Source: Phycisphaerae bacterium
GTDB taxonomy: Bacteria > Chloroflexota > Anaerolineae > 4572-78 > J111
DNA length: 49,085 bases
Direction of reading: 5' to 3'
NCBI GenBank assembly: GCA_028285035.1
Contig: JANQQF010000076.1
Location: 1 to 49,085 of the forward strand
The notes under the pieces were generated by a model, which made no database searches, was not told the DNA's origin, and saw only the letters and a program-made list of their open reading frames with translations. Numbering within the stretch: position 1 is the stretch's first letter; every line of letters starts with the position of its first letter. Shown here piece by piece: positions 15,901-49,085 of the stretch. The translations under genes and the position numbers were made by a program.

Positions 15901-17571
15901 ATGTTTGCAGCCTATTTGTCCCCGCTGGCGCCAACGGTCACGTTACTGTTGAGCGCCTTCATTTTGTTTATTGTGATGCCTTGGTTACCGTCACTATGGC
16001 GAACCAAACCCTGGGTTGAAAATTGGTTCGCCACAGGGCTTGTTGGCGTAGCTGGCCTGATGTTGTTATTCATACAACTCACACTGGGGTTGGATGCAAC
16101 AGGTCTGGGCCTTAGCCCATTATTTGGCTGGCAACTATCCCCTGATTTTGGCTATGATCTCAATATTCGTGCTGATGAGCTGAGCCTGGTCTTTTTGATT
16201 TTGACATTACTGTTGCTTCTGGTCGTCACCTTAATGTCCTCTCCGTTTTGGCGTTCTGATGATCGTTTATCTTCGCTGGAAAATTGGCGTAGTATTTCTA
16301 TTTGGTTAGCGATTGGGGCGAGTGCTTGTTTTCTATTTGTTTCCGCCAATCTCCTAACCGTCGCTTACGCTATTTTAGCCTTTGATTTTTTGCTTGCCAT
16401 TTACTGGCTTCGACAAGGCCACAGTAATCGAACTGTTTCTCGTTTATTTCTTGGCTTTTTTTCAGCCACTGCCCTAACACTCATTGGCGCATTTGACCTG
16501 ACGCCGAGCAACGCCAATGATGCCTCACAATTTGGATTATTTTTAGTCGGTGGGGCGTTGTGGCTAAGACTTGGCTTTTTTCCATTTATTGAGATGGCCG
16601 GTCTAATTCGTTGGGATGATGATGAACGCCTGGCCTATCTTGGTCTCTCGTTAATTGTGGGGCTATATTTGCTGATGCGCGTGTTAAGCGCCCCCTTGCC
16701 GGATATCATGCTCTGGTTCACCGCCTTGATTATGTTGTTTAGTGGGTTACTCACCTGGTTGACTAATCGTTCTCCTGTTTGGCTTATTTATCTGATTGTG
16801 ACTGAAATTCTATTTCTTTTGTTGGTCACAATGCCATTTGCGGGTGAACCAGGGGGACTATCAACAGCCAGTCTCTTGGCCATAACCTTGGTATTACCTT
16901 TGAGCCTAATTGCCCTATGGGTCACGCCCTCTTTAGGCAGACCGAACTTTCAAGAACGAGCTTGGCTCTGGCTGTATTTACCGGCTGCGGCTGCGACCAT
17001 CAACCTGGTCGGCGTGCCGTTTACCTTGGGCTGGGTGATGCGTACTGAGCTGTATAAGGCCTTGTTGAAATTTGATAATTTCTTATTTATCATTATTGCC
17101 TTGCTTGCAGAAGCTCTTGCGCTTAGCGGCTTAGTTCGATACTGGTTGGTCTTATGGCAAGGTGAGAATGGTCACCCCCACCGACGTTTAGCTATTGGGA
17201 TTGTCGTGACTGTGCCCTTTCTCCTGCCGGGGCTAGGGATGTTTGTTTTGACCCGGCTGACCCAGCTGACGTTTCCAACAGTGGATTTTGCCCAATCAGT
17301 TGGAGCCATTGCGGCCCTTATCATTGTCGTTGGTGGGGCCATAGCCCTTGCCTACTATCGAGATGCCTTGATGATGACTATCCCATTACCCTCCGCTCGA
17401 GTGGCACGGCTTGCTCGTTTAGGGTGGCTTTGGCCCTTGAGCCGTCGTTGGTTAAGTCGCCTGGGTAAAGTTATCTTACGCATCGATGTTGTATTACAAG
17501 GTCAGCATTATGTGGGTTGGGCGATTTTTATTACCTTAATTGGGGTATTGATTATTTTTTTACAGACTTGA
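15901..17571 (+). CDS. Complex-I/Mrp antiporter-like membrane subunit (NuoL/M-like)
   Basis: 556 residues, about 14 hydrophobic helices, with the overall pattern of the proton-conducting NuoL/NuoM/MrpA/D family. The usual helix-5 WE motif is replaced: the stretch after SANLLTVAYA reads ILAFDFLLAIYWL, with Asp as the only acidic residue. In the helix-7 region the normal Lys is not seen (LWLRLGFFPFIEMAG has Arg). Key proton-path residues are therefore altered, and ion translocation is uncertain. It is the first gene of a tight three-gene operon (3-base gap to the next). Confidence 0.75.
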   Translation: MFAAYLSPLAPTVTLLLSAFILFIVMPWLPSLWRTKPWVENWFATGLVGVAGLMLLFIQLTLGLDATGLGLSPLFGWQLSPDFGYDLNIRADELSLVFLILTLLLLLVVTLMSSPFWRSDDRLSSLENWRSISIWLAIGASACFLFVSANLLTVAYAILAFDFLLAIYWLRQGHSNRTVSRLFLGFFSATALTLIGAFDLTPSNANDASQFGLFLVGGALWLRLGFFPFIEMAGLIRWDDDERLAYLGLSLIVGLYLLMRVLSAPLPDIMLWFTALIMLFSGLLTWLTNRSPVWLIYLIVTEILFLLLVTMPFAGEPGGLSTASLLAITLVLPLSLIALWVTPSLGRPNFQERAWLWLYLPAAAATINLVGVPFTLGWVMRTELYKALLKFDNFLFIIIALLAEALALSGLVRYWLVLWQGENGHPHRRLAIGIVVTVPFLLPGLGMFVLTRLTQLTFPTVDFAQSVGAIAALIIVVGGAIALAYYRDALMMTIPLPSARVARLARLGWLWPLSRRWLSRLGKVILRIDVVLQGQHYVGWAIFITLIGVLIIFLQT

Positions 17572-17574
17572 TAT

Positions 17575-18306
17575 TTGATGCCAACATTACCTGAGACCTT
17601 AGATCAGCTTAATATTATTCCGTTGGATGCCCTGTTATTGGGTATTTTCTTGACAGCGGCCATAATTTTGGTCATTCGTGATTGGCGACTATTAATTTTG
17701 GCATTGCTGGGGCAATATATCGTCACAACTTTGATTATTTCTCGGTTGGTACGACCTGATATAGCGGCTGTAAAGCTTTTGATTGGGGCCTTTATTTGTC
17801 CTATCTTATTTTTATCCGTGAGACAAGTCATTGCGTTTACCCCAACGGTGGTGACAAATATTGAAACCACCATCGATAGAAGAAAGAATTTAGGCTGGTG
17901 GAATAACTTTGTCGAGGCGGTCCTGCCCTTTATTTTTGGCCGAAAACGGCATCGTGGTTTGACCTCTACTGGATTACTCTTTCGTTTTTTTGCTGCTCTT
18001 CTCATGATGATTGTCGCAATTTTGCTCAGCCAAACGTTGTCACTATCCAATGATTTGTCACAGGAATTTGAAATAGCCATCTACTGGCTTATTCTGGCTG
18101 GTCTAACCGCGTTGATTTTGTTTGAGGATCCACTTAAAGTTGGCTTGGGACTATTTACACTTTTTATGGGATTTGATTTGTATTATGTAACCGTCGAGGC
18201 AAGTTTGTTCTTAACTGGGTTGTGGGGAACAGTAAATCTACTTGTGGCCTTAGTTACTGGCTATTTGATTGTCGCTAAGGGTGCTAACCCTGAGGAGGGG
18301 AGATAG
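17575..18306 (+). CDS. Small membrane protein of an antiporter-like operon
   Basis: 243 residues with about six or seven membrane spans in two blocks, split by a basic loop (TIDRRKNLGWWNNFV ... GRKRHRG, about residues 98-125). I do not recognise a named family. Its place between two complex-I antiporter-like genes suggests a role like NuoJ/NuoK or MrpB/C, the small spacer subunits. It is followed by a one-base overlap with the next gene, whose GTG start begins on the last base of this stop codon, indicating translational coupling. Confidence 0.65.
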   Translation: MMPTLPETLDQLNIIPLDALLLGIFLTAAIILVIRDWRLLILALLGQYIVTTLIISRLVRPDIAAVKLLIGAFICPILFLSVRQVIAFTPTVVTNIETTIDRRKNLGWWNNFVEAVLPFIFGRKRHRGLTSTGLLFRFFAALLMMIVAILLSQTLSLSNDLSQEFEIAIYWLILAGLTALILFEDPLKVGLGLFTLFMGFDLYYVTVEASLFLTGLWGTVNLLVALVTGYLIVAKGANPEEGR

Positions 18307-23505: not shown

Positions 23506-24351
23506 TCATTTTCTTGTAATTACCTGGATATTACGAGCGACTAATCCCGAACGATGTTCAACCAACTCAAACTGAACCTTCGTTCCTGCCCGCAATGTTC
23601 GGTAGCCTTCACCCGGAATGGCCGTGAAGTTGAAGAAAACATCTTGCCCCTTCTCGCCATCCAATAAAATTGAGCCATTTCCACTTGCCAAATCAAATGA
23701 TTGAACCGTTCCTTGAGCAACGGGTAAGCCATTTGCTCCGAGCTTGGGCGCACCGTCAAGCCATTCTTGTTGTGGAATTCTAAGCTGCAGAACCTCGCTG
23801 TTCGTATAGGCATCATGACTGTAATTCAAAAATGTTTGCATGATTGCTCGTAAGTCTTGGCGTAATTCTTCGGAAGAAGGTCTACCTACAAAGAACCAAC
23901 CGTTGTAAATATTGTGAATTGTTAAGTCGGGACGTAAGACAAAGACATAAGGTTGAGTGGGATAAGCATACTCCCCTTCTGTTTCATCCAGAATATTGAT
24001 TTGTTTAATCAGAGTTCTGTCCTCATCTGCCAGAAAAGGCCATTCTGCACCCAACCCCGCTCGAAAAGCTGCTTGAACCTCAGGTGGTTGGACACTAATC
24101 GTAACCATTTTGGCATAATTCACCTTGAGTTCTTTTTGAAATTCGACTAACTGTCGCATCTGCTGTTGATCGCGTGGGCAGTAAAAGCCTCGATAAAAGA
24201 CCACAATCAAGGGATACCCATCCAGAAATCCCACCCTGCAGTCAAAATCGCTGGGCTGGATTAATGTTGATAATTTTATTAACGTTTTGTTGTGATTTGG
24301 TAGCGTTACATCGGGGAACTTGTCCCGATCTTTAAATTTGTAGTCATGCAT
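23506..24351 (-). CDS. Peroxiredoxin-like protein fused to a cold-shock domain
   Basis: 281 residues. Residues 1-175 are a thioredoxin-fold peroxiredoxin with the peroxidatic Cys58 in VVFYRGFYCPRDQQQM. The usual second Cys of CPxC is absent (CPRD), so it looks like a 1-Cys type. After a linker, residues 212-281 form a cold-shock domain: GTVQSFDLASGNGSILL matches the GTVKWFNxxKGFGFI strand with RNP1, DVFFNFTAI matches RNP2 (VFVHFSAI), and LRAGTKVQFELVE is the third strand. The domain would bind single-stranded nucleic acid. The start ATG has GAAGGGG upstream. The fusion is rare in my knowledge. Confidence 0.85.
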   Translation of the reverse strand: MHDYKFKDRDKFPDVTLPNHNKTLIKLSTLIQPSDFDCRVGFLDGYPLIVVFYRGFYCPRDQQQMRQLVEFQKELKVNYAKMVTISVQPPEVQAAFRAGLGAEWPFLADEDRTLIKQINILDETEGEYAYPTQPYVFVLRPDLTIHNIYNGWFFVGRPSSEELRQDLRAIMQTFLNYSHDAYTNSEVLQLRIPQQEWLDGAPKLGANGLPVAQGTVQSFDLASGNGSILLDGEKGQDVFFNFTAIPGEGYRTLRAGTKVQFELVEHRSGLVARNIQVITRK

Positions 24352-24841: not shown

Positions 24842-26332
24842 TTAGCCTTCATAAATGACTGTATCAGGCTGGAAGGCGGCCCAAGCAAACCAGAAGTGCA
24901 TAAAGCTGAGGACGGGTTCTAGTTGTGTCCCTGCCAACTCGCCCGAAACCGCTTGACCAAATACATCCCACTCCGAACCAGTTTCATTGTCTGTAATGAC
25001 ACCATCAGTGTGGCTGAATGTTAGCTTTTCACCATCAACTAAAGGAATGAACATCGCGGCTGAACCGACTTGTCGTGACTCCGCAATTTGACCTTTATCT
25101 AGGGCAGATGCCTGCCCTGGTTCGAAGAAGATGACAATGTCTAGATCGTTGTCCAGTGTATCCTCAATTACCCCAGCCTCGGCGATTTCGGGTAGAGGGT
25201 AGGCTATAGAAACATCCCCACTGTGATAACCGAGTACACGCTCGGTTGCATCCATCCGAGGATCAGGCTCATTAAGGAATAGGAATGGACGTGGAGAAGA
25301 GTCATATCCTACGTAGGGGTTTTGGCCATAATTTCGTCCATTACTTGAAAGAACTCGTCCTTCGGGATAACGTGTTTTAAAGTCTTTCCAGGCAACGAGT
25401 TGAGCTGGCAGAAACTCCAACTGAGTCCCTGTTAAATCACCTACAATGCCTTCCCCTGTGAATTGTTGCCACCAGGTCAGGGTCTTGTCATCCCACATAA
25501 TCATATCGCTATTACGCAGGTTACCAGATACCCCAAATCGCAACACTTCGTCATTGACTTCACGATTGAACACAACGCCAGCGTTACATAGTGGACAGAA
25601 TGTCGCTGCTACTGGTACCCCGCCAACAATATCATTGACGATTTCGTGACGTGTTAAAATTGCTAGCGGATAAGCGCGAGCATCACCATCAATTTCGAGT
25701 GAGAGTACAGGCTGAACATCAGCGAGCCATTCATCGCCAACCTCAATTGAGTCAAAGTTAGGATCATCAATGGGGGGGATACCATCGGGGGGGGGACCGC
25801 CGGATAAAATTTCATCAAACTCAACGCTGCGCTTACAGAAGTTTGTGGCTAAATCACTGTTTGGATCAACCCGAGTTGGCCCCACAAAGCGAGCCAGACG
25901 TTCTGCCGTCCATAATTCGGGGCTAAAGCGAACATTTTGCCCTTCGAATGGATCATCACAGGTCTCATCCGAATGCGCCTCTTCAGCCATAGCCTCTTCC
26001 TCGGCCATTGCTTCAGCATCCATTTCTTCTTCAGCCATCGCCTCCTCTTCGGCCATCGCTTCTTCAGCCATAGCCTCTTCCTCGGCCATTGCTTCAGCAT
26101 CCATTTCCTCTTCAGCCATGGCTTCTTCCGCCGCTTCTTCAACAACCTCTTCTACTTCTTCTACCACCTCTTCCGCCGCTTCCTCAGCTTCTTCTACAGG
26201 GGCCACCTCTTCCACCACCGTTTCTGTGGTTGAGCTTTCTGTATCACTTTCAGTTGATGTAGCTGCCCCGCAGCCCGCAATAACTAGGGCTGAGATTAAG
26301 ATTACCAGCCACATCCATATCGAACGTTTCAT
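24842..26332 (-). CDS. DUF3179 lipoprotein with an acidic repeat linker
   Basis: 496 residues from ATG 26332, chosen over ATG 26347 because GAGGAG (26341-26346) is at ideal distance. Signal peptide with lipobox VIAGC. Residues about 25-125 are a Glu/Ala/Met-rich linker, encoded partly by an 81-base direct repeat. From about residue 135 the DUF3179 domain shows DARAYPLAILTRHEIVNDIV, ATFCPLCNAGVVFNR with a CxxC-like pair, GNLRNSDMIMWDDKT and LSSNGRNYGQNPY. The family is exported and of unknown role. The acid linker probably spaces the domain from the membrane. Confidence 0.88.
   Translation of the reverse strand: MKRSIWMWLVILISALVIAGCGAATSTESDTESSTTETVVEEVAPVEEAEEAAEEVVEEVEEVVEEAAEEAMAEEEMDAEAMAEEEAMAEEAMAEEEAMAEEEMDAEAMAEEEAMAEEAHSDETCDDPFEGQNVRFSPELWTAERLARFVGPTRVDPNSDLATNFCKRSVEFDEILSGGPPPDGIPPIDDPNFDSIEVGDEWLADVQPVLSLEIDGDARAYPLAILTRHEIVNDIVGGVPVAATFCPLCNAGVVFNREVNDEVLRFGVSGNLRNSDMIMWDDKTLTWWQQFTGEGIVGDLTGTQLEFLPAQLVAWKDFKTRYPEGRVLSSNGRNYGQNPYVGYDSSPRPFLFLNEPDPRMDATERVLGYHSGDVSIAYPLPEIAEAGVIEDTLDNDLDIVIFFEPGQASALDKGQIAESRQVGSAAMFIPLVDGEKLTFSHTDGVITDNETGSEWDVFGQAVSGELAGTQLEPVLSFMHFWFAWAAFQPDTVIYEG
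25981..26142. repeat. 81-base direct repeat coding an acidic linker
   Basis: CTTCAGCCATAGCCTCTTCC and the following bases recur 81 bases (27 codons) later with few changes. On the coding strand this gives repeated Ala-Met-Ala-Glu-Glu-Glu units. It is a likely spot for length variation by slippage or recombination. Confidence 0.75.
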
Positions 26333-26509
26333 TACTATGCTCCTCATCTAGTTAATCTAATTCATCAGGTGTATATCTATCACTATTTTGTGTCAAAAAG
26401 ATAATATACCCAAGATATATTTATACCCATTTGGGCAAATCTAAGTTCATTCTACGTGACCCTGTAGATTGCCTCTGTAGGCTTGAATACAATCATTTGT
26501 GAGGGATCT

Positions 26510-32368: not shown

Positions 32369-32508
32369 ATGGGGTGTAGTGGGGTAAAATAAGTTTGTAC
32401 AATTTAGATTGGAAGATACCTTACAGCCGATTTAAGTTTCGGCCATTAATATCATCTTTAGATACCAATTCTAAACTGGCAATAAAGATGTTTTGGAAGG
32501 GGAGAATT

Positions 32509-33111
32509 ATGTCTGTTGAGTCAACATCAGTGGAAACGACTAGTAATGCTAAAGGAATGTGGCTTTGGGGAATTATCATTATTTTTGTGATTGTGGTAGG
32601 TGGTGTTTGGATCTTGTTCTCTCGTACAATTACCACCACAACCGCTTCAAATTCGAGCGGTGTAGTCTTAGAACCGGCTCCCATCGCTGGTCACCCGGCA
32701 CCAGTTTTCGAATTACAAACGCTAGATGGTGATATAGTAACTTTGGCTGACTTTAAAGGTAAGCCAGTCTTGATTAATTTTTGGGCAACGTGGTGTGGCC
32801 CTTGCCGCGCTGAGATGCCTGAGTTCCAGCAGGCTGCTGTTGACAACAGCGATGATCTAGTCGTTATCGGTATTAACAATACGGCCAATGATACACCAGA
32901 GCTTGTGAATGATTTTGTTGATGAATTAGGTATAACATTCTTAATTCTTCTGGATGAGAGCGGCGACACGGCTGAAACCTATCGTGTCCTTGGCTTACCA
33001 ATGACCGTGTTTGTCGATCGAAACGGTGTGGTCAATGAGGTCTTCACCGGCCCCTTAAACAAGGCCTATATCGAAGCCAAAATACCTGAGTTACTCAACC
33101 CAGCATCATAA
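32509..33111 (+). CDS. TlpA-family membrane-anchored thiol-disulfide oxidoreductase
   Basis: 200 residues. The start ATG 32509 has AAGGGGAG just upstream; an open frame reaches back to 32395 but without such a site. A single membrane span (about residues 18-40) is followed by a thioredoxin fold with the redox motif FWATWCGPCRAEMPEF and a cis-Pro segment VLGLPMTVFVDR. The domain faces outward and would reduce or exchange disulfides, for example in cytochrome c maturation. Confidence 0.88.
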   Translation: MSVESTSVETTSNAKGMWLWGIIIIFVIVVGGVWILFSRTITTTTASNSSGVVLEPAPIAGHPAPVFELQTLDGDIVTLADFKGKPVLINFWATWCGPCRAEMPEFQQAAVDNSDDLVVIGINNTANDTPELVNDFVDELGITFLILLDESGDTAETYRVLGLPMTVFVDRNGVVNEVFTGPLNKAYIEAKIPELLNPAS

Positions 33112-36912: not shown

Positions 36913-37188
36913 TTAGGACAACTTGCCCAAAGTGTTGACCATTTTGGCAATGGCCTCATTGGCCGAACCGTGCTCCTCTGGGTGACTGACACAATCAAGA
37001 GCGTAATTTTCAACAAGTAACAAAGAGATTTGATGGGCCGCCCCACGAATGGCCGATAACTGCGTCAGAATATCAGAACACTCACGATTTTCATTGAGCA
37101 TTCGCCGTACGCCACGCACTTGACCTTCTAGCCGTTGTAACCGTTGATCAACATTTTTTTGTACTTCAGAGGTAAGTTTGTCTTTCAT
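36913..37188 (-). CDS. CsoR/FrmR-family repressor, CstR-like sensor site
   Basis: 91 residues, all-alpha DUF156 family. Cys37 (NRECSDIL) and Cys66 (YALDCV) are 29 residues apart, as in CsoR (Cys36/Cys65) and the persulfide sensor CstR (Cys31/Cys60). The copper-binding His that lies four residues before the second Cys in CsoR is Tyr62 here. This points to thiol or persulfide sensing rather than Cu(I) binding (inference). A matching operator lies in the promoter of the trxA-selenothioredoxin operon upstream. A hairpin separates this gene from that operon. Confidence 0.85.
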   Translation of the reverse strand: MKDKLTSEVQKNVDQRLQRLEGQVRGVRRMLNENRECSDILTQLSAIRGAAHQISLLLVENYALDCVSHPEEHGSANEAIAKMVNTLGKLS

Positions 37189-37215: not shown

Positions 37216-37260
37216 AAAACCGCAACGGCATCCAGAAATCTATGACCGTTGCGGTTTTTA
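37216..37260 (-). terminator. Terminator/attenuator between selenothioredoxin and CsoR-family genes
   Basis: 12-base arms AAACCGCAACGG / CCGTTGCGGTTT with T-runs on both sides. On the minus strand it lies about 30 bases after the selenothioredoxin stop and before the regulator start, so read-through to the regulator would be reduced. Confidence 0.7.
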
Positions 37261-37290: not shown

Positions 37291-37722
37291 TTAGTTTTCG
37301 GCGATCAGTAGTGCCTCAACTTCATTCGTGATTACATCAGATTGCGGTAAGCCATATTCACCATAAATCAACTCGCCGCCGCCATCGACAACAATAAGCG
37401 TTGGGACAGCACGGACACCGTACTTCAGTGCCACATTACGACCCACCTCACTCAAGATATTGAGCCGTAATACTTCAGCTTTGCCATCTAATCTAGTTTC
37501 TATCCTATCCACGATAGGCTTACTCAAAAGGCAGGTGCTTCAGAAATTTGAATAAAAATCAATGACGACCGGCTCACCAGCCGTCACTGATTGCTCAAAA
37601 GCGGCAACCGAGGTGATATGCTCTGAAGGGGTGTTACGCAGAAAAAAGAAAGCCGCCCCTAGCACAGTGATAAAGAGTAATAAAGGCCCGTTGAGGCGCA
37701 ACCACTCACGAATAGCGGTCAT
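37291..37722 (-). CDS. Membrane-anchored thioredoxin-like selenoprotein (UxxC), in-frame TGA = Sec
   Basis: Read through the TGA at 37540-37542 this is one 143-residue protein. A membrane span (about 13-28) precedes a thioredoxin fold with VVIDFYSNF-Sec61-STC64 in the position of the CxxC redox motif, and the cis-Pro loop VRAVPTLIVVDGGGE. The frame is open on both sides of TGA without any shift. A hairpin fitting a bacterial SECIS starts 22 bases after TGA. Its start overlaps the trxA stop codon (TAATG), so it is made with TrxA. Sec would make a strongly reducing, outward-facing Trx. A nonsense-mutated pseudogene is the alternative, but the exact TGA position and selD in the same window argue against it. 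Confidence 0.85.
37504..37542 (-). promoter_or_regulatory. Putative bacterial SECIS after the thioredoxin TGA
   Basis: TGA (37540-37542), 21 bases, then CCTATC-GTG-GATAGG: a perfect 6-base stem with a three-base loop starting with G, the loop at 28-30 bases past TGA. This fits the bacterial SECIS model (a short apical loop with G in its first two positions, within about 16-37 bases), where SelB binds. Confidence 0.75.
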
Positions 37723-38054
37723 TAATTTGCGCTCAATAAATCTTCAAAGTTTTGCTGAATTTTTGGCTTAGGTGCTGCCCCAACCATCTTATTAACGACG
37801 TCGCCATTTTTTATGAAGAGCATCGTTGGGATACCCTGGACACCATATTGCATGGCATAACTTGGGTTTTCATCAGTGTTTACTTTTGCGATTACAACTT
37901 GATCACCATATTCTTCCGCCATAGCGTCCAAAATTGGGGCAATCATACGACACGGTCCACACCAAGGTGCCCAAAAGTCAACAACAACAGGTGTTGCCGA
38001 ATTTAATACTTTTTCTTCGAATTCTGCATCAGTAACATGAATTGGGCTAGACAT
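37722..38054 (-). CDS. trxA: Thioredoxin
   Basis: 110 residues. Redox motif VDFWAPWCGPCRMIAPIL, the buried Asp in PVVVDFW, and the cis-Pro loop VQGIPTMLFIKNG, all standard for cytoplasmic thioredoxin. Start ATG with AAGGAGAA. It is first in an operon with the selenothioredoxin (TAATG overlap). The promoter carries a CsoR/CstR-type palindrome, so it is probably induced by a thiol-reactive signal. Confidence 0.95.
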   Translation of the reverse strand: MSSPIHVTDAEFEEKVLNSATPVVVDFWAPWCGPCRMIAPILDAMAEEYGDQVVIAKVNTDENPSYAMQYGVQGIPTMLFIKNGDVVNKMVGAAPKPKIQQNFEDLLSAN

Positions 38055-38088: not shown

Positions 38089-38117
38089 ATTATACCCTAT
38101 AGGGGTATTTTTTAAGA
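38089..38117 (-). promoter_or_regulatory. Promoter of trxA operon with CsoR/CstR-type operator
   Basis: On the minus strand TATAAT (38089-38094) lies 17 bases from a weak -35 (TCTTAA). The palindrome ATACCCTATAGGGGTAT (38092-38108, plus strand) overlaps the -10 and spacer. It matches the TACCC...GGGGTA operators bound by CsoR-type repressors. The CsoR-family gene 0.9 kb downstream is the obvious ligand. Confidence 0.7.
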
Positions 38118-38229
38118 TTATAGATGAGCAAAATTCAGTGTCAAATCACTGGTGCTTAAAATTTTACTCTAATTGATAGACTGTAATGCTTCCCAAATTC
38201 TTACCTCGGTTATTTTCTTCGAGAATGAT

Positions 38230-46300: not shown

Positions 46301-47353
46301 TTAAGATAAAACCTCAATACCACTGCCTTGCTTTACTTGACCGATAACCCAATTAGCTTGGTTTCGATCAGCACAGGCTTGCTGAAAAGCGGCTAGGCGC
46401 TCAGGCGGAATGGCTAGTAGTAACCCACCTGAGGTTTGCGGATCCCACAATATCCACTGTTGCTCGTCTGGGATAGACGCATTAAAAGTAATTTCATTTT
46501 CAAAGTAAGACTTGTTGTTAGACGCGCCACCTGGAAAGATAAATTCAGCCGCGTACTTTGTTACGCCGTCTAGCAGCGGGATTTGATTCATTTCAAAGAC
46601 AAATTTATGTTCAGAGGCCTTGCTCATTTCCATTGCATGACCAAGTAGTCCGAAACCAGTAATGTCTGTCACAGATTTGATGTTTCCAGCCAACTGCCCT
46701 GCCTCAGCCGCAGCGCGATTCAGATGTTTCATTGAGTTGACCATCTGCTCAACATGCGCTGTTTCGGCTAGATTTCGTTTGAGGGCTGTACTGATTGTTC
46801 CTGTGCCTAAAGGCTTTGTTAAAACTAAAATATCACCCGTCTTGGCTCCACCTTTGGTGAAGTAGCGCTCTGGGTGAACCGTTCCAGTAACCGCGAGACC
46901 ATATTTTGGCTCATCATCAGTGACAGTATGTCCACCTGCGATGACGGCACCTGCCTCAAGGACTTTCTCTGCCCCACCTCGCAAAATTTCGGTAACCACA
47001 GTTGAGTCAAGTTTCTCTGGAAAAGCACCGACGTTCAAGGCAAAAACAACTTGCCCGCCCATTGCATAAACATCGCTCATTGAATTTGCCGCAGCAATGG
47101 CCCCAAAATCATAGGGATCATCAACAACGGGCGTGAAAAAATCTAACGTGTTGATGATTGCCTGATCATCATTGACTTTGTAGACGGCTGCATCATCGGC
47201 AATATCTAAACCAACAAGCAATTCAGGAGGCGTATGTCCGGTAAATATATTCTTTAAAGGACGCAACACGTGCGTCAAGGCCTCAGGGGCCATTTTGCTA
47301 GCTCAACCAGCACATTTAGCCATTGCAGTAAGTTTTATCTCTTGGCTTGTCAT
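46301..47353 (-). CDS. selD: Selenide, water dikinase, itself a selenoprotein (in-frame TGA = Sec17)
   Basis: 350 residues. It makes selenophosphate from selenide and ATP for Sec-tRNA. The true start is ATG 47353 with AAAGGGGG upstream, not the internal ATG 47293. The 20 extra codons read LTAMAKCAG-Sec-ASKMAPEAL, which is the conserved N-terminal catalytic motif of SelD; Sec17 is TGA 47303-47305. Further family motifs: GLDIADDAAVYKV, AANSMSDVYAMGGQVVFALN, VIAGGHTVTDDEPKYGLAVT and WDPQTSGGLLLAIP. A SECIS-like hairpin follows the TGA. This proves the organism has at least part of a Sec system; selA, selB and selC must be elsewhere. Confidence 0.93.
47260..47305 (-). promoter_or_regulatory. Putative bacterial SECIS in selD
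   Basis: TGA, 26 bases, then GACGCA-CGTGT-TGCGTC: a perfect 6-base stem with a 5-base loop whose second base is G, the loop 33-37 bases past TGA. A shorter GGCC/GGCC hairpin closer to TGA is a weaker candidate. Confidence 0.7.
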
Positions 47354-48644: not shown

Positions 48645-49085
48645 TTATTTTTCTGTCTCCACCCATAATCGCTGTCCATCTGTACTAAATTCAATCGTGC
48701 CAGGTTGATCCGTTCGTAGAATAGCTAGCCCGTAACTCTCGTAACGCTCTAACACTTCTGAAGCTGGATGCCCAAAACGGTTGTCTTCTCCTGCAGATAT
48801 CACGACGATTTGGGGATCAACTGCTTGTAGGAATATATCGCTTGAGGAGGTTTGGCTGCCGTGATGGGGGCTCTTTAGAACTGTAGCAGTTAAAGGCGTG
48901 TTGTTGAGAACGAGAGCACGCTCAACCGGAGCTTCAATATCACCTGGAAATAAAAAGCTGATTTCCTCATAATAGTTGCATAGGCCAAGATCAGTAATCC
49001 AATAGGAAATCTGCCTAAATCGAGGGAAGCGTAAGGGAGTTGGACGGTCTGCTCAACAACCCAAACTGACCAAGCCAAGGGTAGC
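48645..49085 (-). pseudogene. ComEC-like competence protein, internally deleted
   Basis: At the window edge a hydrophobic segment (LGRFPIGLLILAYA) matches the last membrane spans of ComEC. The next segment, in a different frame (ISFLFPGDIEAPVERA, then VLKSPHHGSQTSS and VVISAGED), matches the last third of its metallo-beta-lactamase-like domain. The metal-binding N-terminal part of that domain (about 150-200 residues, HxHxDH type) is missing between them. A deletion with a frame change at about 48970 explains this. The gene continues beyond the window. ComEC carries single-stranded DNA into competent cells; this copy is most likely dead. Confidence 0.72.

Follow-up and report, generated by a model that had tools for sequence, protein, structure and literature searches.

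A probable selenocysteine-containing, membrane-anchored thioredoxin encoded next to trxA in a probable Anaerolineae-type member of the Chloroflexota

Does a reading frame that is interrupted by a single TGA, at the very place where thioredoxins carry the first Cys of their active site, encode one selenocysteine-containing protein, or is it a decayed gene, a gene read with a different code, or a pair of short genes? The question is raised by a locus at positions 37291..37722, on the minus strand (the strand was absent from the preliminary description), of a stretch of DNA of 49,085 nt that will be referred to here as the window. We assign a probability of about 0.93 to the reading in which this locus is the second gene of a trxA operon in a probable Anaerolineae-type member of the Chloroflexota, and encodes a thioredoxin that is tethered by an N-terminal membrane helix and in which selenocysteine (Sec), specified by the UGA at codon 61, takes the place of the first Cys of the CxxC motif, rendering U-S-T-C.

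Read from 37722 to 37291 with TGA as U, the frame comprises 143 aa, contains a single TGA (37540..37542, minus strand) and ends in TAA; the sequence around the site is ...VVIDFYSNF-U-STC-LLSKPIVDR...VRAVPT... When Cys was written for Sec, PF00085 matched residues 37-117, across the TGA, with 44.3 bits against a gathering cut-off of 23.5, and in an alignment of U61-S-T-C64 with the CGPC of solved thioredoxins U61 fell on the first Cys and C64 on the second. The conserved cis-Pro of thioredoxins is also present (P107, in VP107), as it is in 81/81 relatives. On the other hand, the score against TIGR01068 (56.5 bits) lies below the TrxA equivalog cut-off of 96.8, the match to PF00578 was only marginal (20 bits, cut-off 26), no NCBIfam model matched the protein at its own cut-off, and Rfam gave no match at the gathering threshold. 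Judged by its sequence, the protein is a thioredoxin, but it is not filed as TrxA. A structure model computed with an alignment of 82 rows (pLDDT 91.2) consists of one long N-terminal helix, residues 2-29, followed by strands and helices in the thioredoxin order. The top PDB match of this model is a thioredoxin complex, and most of the 50 matches listed are titled thioredoxin. The hydrophobicity of the protein peaks over 19 residues from position 10, with a mean of 2.09 (2.26-2.35 in the 3 full-length relatives), and the N-terminal helix is predicted to be a transmembrane helix. These observations bear out the preliminary description in what it had claimed of the protein, namely the joining of two in-frame pieces through one TGA as Sec-Ser-Thr-Cys, a thioredoxin fold around it that is intact in DFYSNF and in the cis-Pro of VPT, and a membrane anchor.

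It could be asked whether a joined frame of this kind is fortuitous. Under a rule of at least 20 codons before and at least 60 after the TGA, 18 TGA-split ORF pairs were found in the window. The Pfam scan took 17 of them, since the remaining one (15901-18306) represents two adjacent genes fused, and rendered a match for the Sec-thioredoxin alone, that of PF00085 across its TGA; the other 16 scanned pairs of the window had no Pfam match. A looser listing contained 24 pairs, selD included, and six more of these were scanned with Pfam: five had no match, and in the sixth a histidine phosphatase domain was matched entirely downstream of the TGA, so that none of the six shows a match across it. The TGA join of the Sec-thioredoxin is more than chance.

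The distribution of relatives provides a second line of evidence. A search with the single sequence gave 2 proteins, a search with the C-terminal half gave 3, including the window's own fragment, and a search with a four-sequence alignment gave 82 relatives, one of them (P0004) being the window's own 73-aa fragment and 81 being external, although two of the four rows of the query alignment were already shortened at the N-terminus and may favour short matches. Used by itself, however, the full-length query retrieved no more than one full-length relative, which has Trp. According to the preliminary description gene callers would break the gene, and indeed 78 of the 81 external relatives, when placed against the 143-aa frame, are the part after the site. 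They begin after column 61, at column 66 in 71 cases, at columns 62, 65 and 74 in one case each, and at columns 70 and 71 in two cases each, and none of the 81 starts between columns 2 and 61. This is to be expected if gene callers meet a stop there, and it points to a TGA at column 61 in the relatives as well. Four columns after the site (E75, G94, P107 and G116) are invariant in 81/81. Only three of the 81 are full-length: P0079, with 44% identity, reads EFYSNG-C-ASC and thus has Cys at column 61, whereas P0002 and P0043 have Trp. The occurrence of Cys at this codon in a relative had been set in advance as a check, and it was found, in a single sequence. The six relatives for which an organism is named (P0003, P0023, P0027, P0053, P0054 and P0081) are labelled Chloroflexi or Anaerolineae, and the affiliation of the window is deduced from these names. 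A scan of the contig set rendered a single relative (29%), which is an ordinary thioredoxin of Kerfeldbacteria; in viral contigs there was no match with the P0001 query, and 26 loci at 25-34% identity were retrieved with the family alignment. Plasmids gave 150 records (20 listed), all with <60% identity and none of them covering 80% of the query. The 78 external entries look like fragments, of 55-85 aa, of a probable selenoprotein thioredoxin, and their annotation could be mended by a single model that has U at column 61.

A further gene of the window bears on how TGA is decoded. The selD gene (46301..47353, minus strand), located 8.6 kb from the Sec-thioredoxin gene (the two TGAs being 9.8 kb apart), is likewise predicted to encode a selenoprotein, its product reading MTSQEIKLTAMAKCAG-U-ASKMAPEAL around an in-frame TGA at 47303..47305 (minus strand). 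The selD ORF as listed starts after this TGA, and the part after it matched TIGR00476 with 352 bits. In an alignment with 3u0o, which we take to be E. coli SelD, the U falls on Cys17, the catalytic Cys of the E. coli protein. A selD gene of the Sec type, with its own in-frame TGA, constitutes strong evidence for Sec decoding in the genome that also carries the Sec-thioredoxin gene. No tRNA gene, tRNA-Sec included, was found in the 49,085 nt. The two genes share the window and a similar layout, a TGA followed by a hairpin whose loop contains GTG, and they differ in that selD, an independent gene, supplies selenophosphate.

With this evidence at hand the other readings of the locus can be weighed. 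That the TGA is decoded as Trp or through a suppressor, in a manner similar to that of table 4, and not as Sec, appears very improbable to us. The W found at column 61 of P0002 and P0043 would agree with it; however, these proteins are encoded on contigs of ~1 kb (1023 and 940 bases), for which the gene caller may perhaps have picked code 4. TGA is a stop in the host organism, since 7/40 listed genes of the window end in it and TGG stands for Trp 238 times, and the site is moreover that of a catalytic Cys, with selD having a TGA at its own. It could also be the case that the locus is a pseudogene, derived from an ordinary Cys thioredoxin by a nonsense mutation or by a sequencing error, as a single substitution in a Cys codon would be enough to produce it, but this is hardly tenable for a gene of which 78/81 external relatives are interrupted at this very position, the columns downstream being strongly conserved, and which shares the window with a selD that has the same kind of TGA. 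That the locus encodes two short proteins, a membrane peptide of 60 aa and a half-thioredoxin of ~77 aa initiated at codon 66, is scarcely credible even though 71/82 rows start at column 66 and TTG is found there in the window, given that this column corresponds to the hydrophobic residue located two positions after CxxC, which is Met in the trxA product of the window (WCGPCRM) and in P0079, and that the short piece would be devoid of the beginning of the fold and of both active-site residues. The three readings were rejected on the relatives, selD, the usage of TGA and the Met of column 66. Selenocysteine at codon 61 is, on the contrary, very likely, because a selD with an in-frame TGA lies nearby, 78/81 relatives start after column 61 and TGA acts as an ordinary terminator, and in this the selenoprotein reading of the preliminary description is upheld.

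The stem-loop after the TGA (37475..37539, minus strand) is a candidate bSECIS element, either as a 6-bp hairpin with a GTG loop or as a longer stem-loop with the loop GTGGATAG. The hairpin previously pointed out, CCTATC-GTG-GATAGG, does exist, but the 28 nt given as its distance from the TGA correspond to the start of the loop and not to that of the stem; when a longer stretch is folded, a different pairing is predicted for its bases, within the larger stem with the loop GTGGATAG. The accessible part of a 2026 review (PMC13188914) gives as rules for bSECIS elements a loop of 3-9 nt, a stem of 4-16 bp, a G in the first two loop bases, a spacing of 16-37 nt and an MFE <= -7.5. The short 6-bp fold has -6.4 as compared with this MFE limit. 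The fold of 68 nt from the TGA, with -16.2 kcal/mol (z -1.65, 12/200 shuffles as good), agrees with those rules, as do the folds after 494/2124 window TGAs according to our own version of the full model, and hairpins of at least 6 bp were found by the same rule after 72/2127 window TGAs. A fold of the 59 nt after the TGA gave z +0.68, with 153/200 shuffles as good. Among synonymous recodings, 67/500 were as stable as the candidate, and 203/500 when the first 48 nt were considered. In the case of selD, the hairpin GACGCA-CGTGT-TGCGTC has a loop that starts 33 nt after the TGA, a z of -1.27 with 23/200 shuffles as good, and 38/500 synonymous recodings that fold as well. The hairpin after the Sec-thioredoxin TGA is not beyond chance, and the hairpins of both genes are compatible with SECIS elements without being proof of them. 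The use of the bSECIS as proof of Sec was dropped, the candidate being weakened by the window frequency, the shuffles and the synonymous recodings; what stands of the earlier argument is that the hairpin fits the published model, but it carries little statistical weight.

The gene upstream, trxA (37722..38054, minus strand), encodes an ordinary thioredoxin of 110 aa with WCGPC. Its stop overlaps the ATG of the Sec-thioredoxin gene by 1 nt, within TAATG at 37724-37720, as had been described. Further upstream, at 38117..38144 (minus strand), a sigma-70 promoter-like site, TTGACA-16-TATAAT, scores 12/12. Promoter-like sites upstream of trxA numbered 4 as against 3.6 in shuffles, and it is therefore the perfect score alone that sets this site apart. 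A palindrome resembling an operator of the CsoR family, ATACCCCTATAGGGTAT (38092..38108, minus strand), starts 8 nt after the sigma-70 site and lies between the -10 box and trxA. No second copy of this palindrome was found in the window at up to 3 mismatches (0.10 expected; 10/100 shuffles had one), although this uniqueness is no independent test because the pattern was copied from the site; a looser pattern has 0.74 expected occurrences. With the 1-nt overlap, the perfect promoter match and the palindrome as signals, trxA and the Sec-thioredoxin gene look like an operon, and the coupling to trxA previously proposed is supported by the overlap and by the promoter-like site upstream of trxA. 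At the other end of the Sec-thioredoxin gene, between it and a CsoR-family gene, a perfect inverted repeat of 13 bp (AAAACCGCAACGG/CCGTTGCGGTTTT; 37216..37258) is likely to be a bidirectional terminator, its 17-nt loop lying outside the rule of the terminator scan.

The CsoR-family gene (36913..37188, minus strand) encodes a putative repressor (PF02583) in which Cys37 and Cys66 are kept and Tyr62 occupies the place of the ligand His. In the five alignments shown this place is taken by His in three (4m1p, 5fmn, 4adz) and by Asn and Ala in 7mq1 and 7mq3, which are presumably persulfide sensors although their records are titled copper-sensing. The Cys-His-Cys copper ligands of CsoR are incomplete in this neighbour, which was not filed as CsoR, and its Cys pair is a candidate counterpart of the one that reacts with sulfane sulfur in the persulfide repressor CstR. 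We infer that it would be a sensor of thiols or of sulfane sulfur more than of copper. CsoR-family repressors bind, according to the accessible text of PMC10318464, pseudo-palindromes with a run of at least 4 G or C, and the same text reports that in Thermus the deletion of the CsoR-family gene TTHA1953 raised the expression of the thioredoxin gene soxW 113-fold. From its position and from the palindrome by the promoter it might be surmised, with less assurance, that the neighbour controls the trxA operon, possibly in response not to copper but to sulfane sulfur or another thiol-reactive stress.

A terminator-like hairpin of 16 pairs, spotted post hoc, is located inside the coding sequence (37557..37592, minus strand), 14 nt upstream of the Sec codon. 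It is followed by TTTATTC; five consecutive T occur here, of which two belong to the stem. Its stability, -24.0 kcal/mol (z -6.56), was reached by 0/200 shuffles and by 1/500 synonymous recodings, and it ranks as the third most stable region, after merging of overlaps, among 13,729 codon-aligned segments of 47 nt from 40 genes. Terminator-like sites in the region numbered 6 as against 1.3 in shuffles, two of the six being the ATACCCCTATAGGGTAT palindrome on either strand. The hairpin looks like an intrinsic terminator or an attenuator and, owing to its position immediately ahead of the Sec codon, provides a case in which regulation in the vicinity of a recoding event can be tested. A bolder and rather unlikely scheme can be envisaged, in which a Chloroflexota lineage of membrane-anchored thioredoxins, almost fixed for Sec, would share its operon with a cytosolic TrxA, and a CsoR-family repressor devoid of a copper site would act as the switch. 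In this scheme the strong hairpin 14 nt before the Sec codon would link transcription, or the movement of ribosomes, with the translation of the UGA, and selenium or thiol stress would thereby be sensed by the operon at the recoding point.

As to how the Sec-containing thioredoxin may work, Sec would be inserted at UGA 61 by means of SelB and of the stem-loop that follows this codon. The N-terminus of the protein would stay inside, as in an N-in signal anchor, and the thioredoxin domain would be exposed outside the membrane, where it may reduce disulfides or oxidised thiols, with Sec61 as the attacking residue and Cys64 as the resolving one. Electrons usually reach an outer thioredoxin from TrxR via TrxA and then through a carrier of the CcdA/DsbD type. 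In the present case they may come from the co-expressed cytosolic TrxA, probably via a separate carrier of this type, and the substrates at the envelope could be, as a guess, disulfides, persulfides or oxidised thiols. Such a protein would add a membrane-anchored, probably extracytoplasmic form to the Sec thioredoxins; its occurrence suggests that selenium is devoted to redox reactions of the envelope in Anaerolineae-type bacteria.

The preliminary description had spoken of an undescribed redox module. This is too strong, because the UxxC Sec-thioredoxin is a listed selenoprotein family in the portions available of three sources (PMC13188914; PMC1794560; PMC1088965), but the membrane-anchored lineage, nearly always shortened in the databases, appears to be new as far as the papers searched go. 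The accessible part of PMC1794560 names as species with a Sec-thioredoxin Treponema denticola, Geobacter, Anaeromyxobacter and Carboxydothermus, and its Table 2 assigns to the Chloroflexi 3 families with 3 selenoproteins. Among the literature matches listed, from a scope outside which most subscription journals lie, there was no membrane or Chloroflexota Sec thioredoxin, an absence of weak value. The window protein has in common with the known Sec-thioredoxins (PF00085, UxxC) a thioredoxin domain in which Sec takes the first active-site position and Cys the second. Compared with them by description, it would differ in its N-terminal anchor, and it differs in FYSNF-U-STC, without Trp before the site, as well as in the coupling of its gene to a normal trxA and in the Chloroflexi/Anaerolineae affiliation of its named relatives. 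With the anchored thioredoxins of the TlpA/ResA type, of which the window contains a Cys example (32395-33111), it shares the N-terminal anchor and the thioredoxin fold, whereas it matches plain PF00085 and has Sec instead of Cys.

Some other features of the window can be mentioned. Counted on both strands of the whole window, TGA occurs 2128 times, as compared with 1806 expected from dinucleotide shuffles. A frame at the window end (48645-49073, minus strand) also has a TGA near its start; it has no Pfam match and there is no reason to call it Sec, and the part after the TGA resembles, in our impression, the end of a ComEC-type protein. A DUF3179 protein is encoded at 24842-26347 (minus strand; 327.7 bits), with a long Glu/Ala-rich stretch near its N-terminus. 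Although the DUF3179 family has Sec members according to the accessible part of PMC13188914, this protein was rejected as a Sec candidate, its site reading FCPLC, with Cys. Finally, the gene at 23506-24351 (minus strand) combines a peroxiredoxin-like AhpC/TSA domain with a C-terminal cold-shock domain (PF00578 and PF00313), a pairing that strikes us as unusual.
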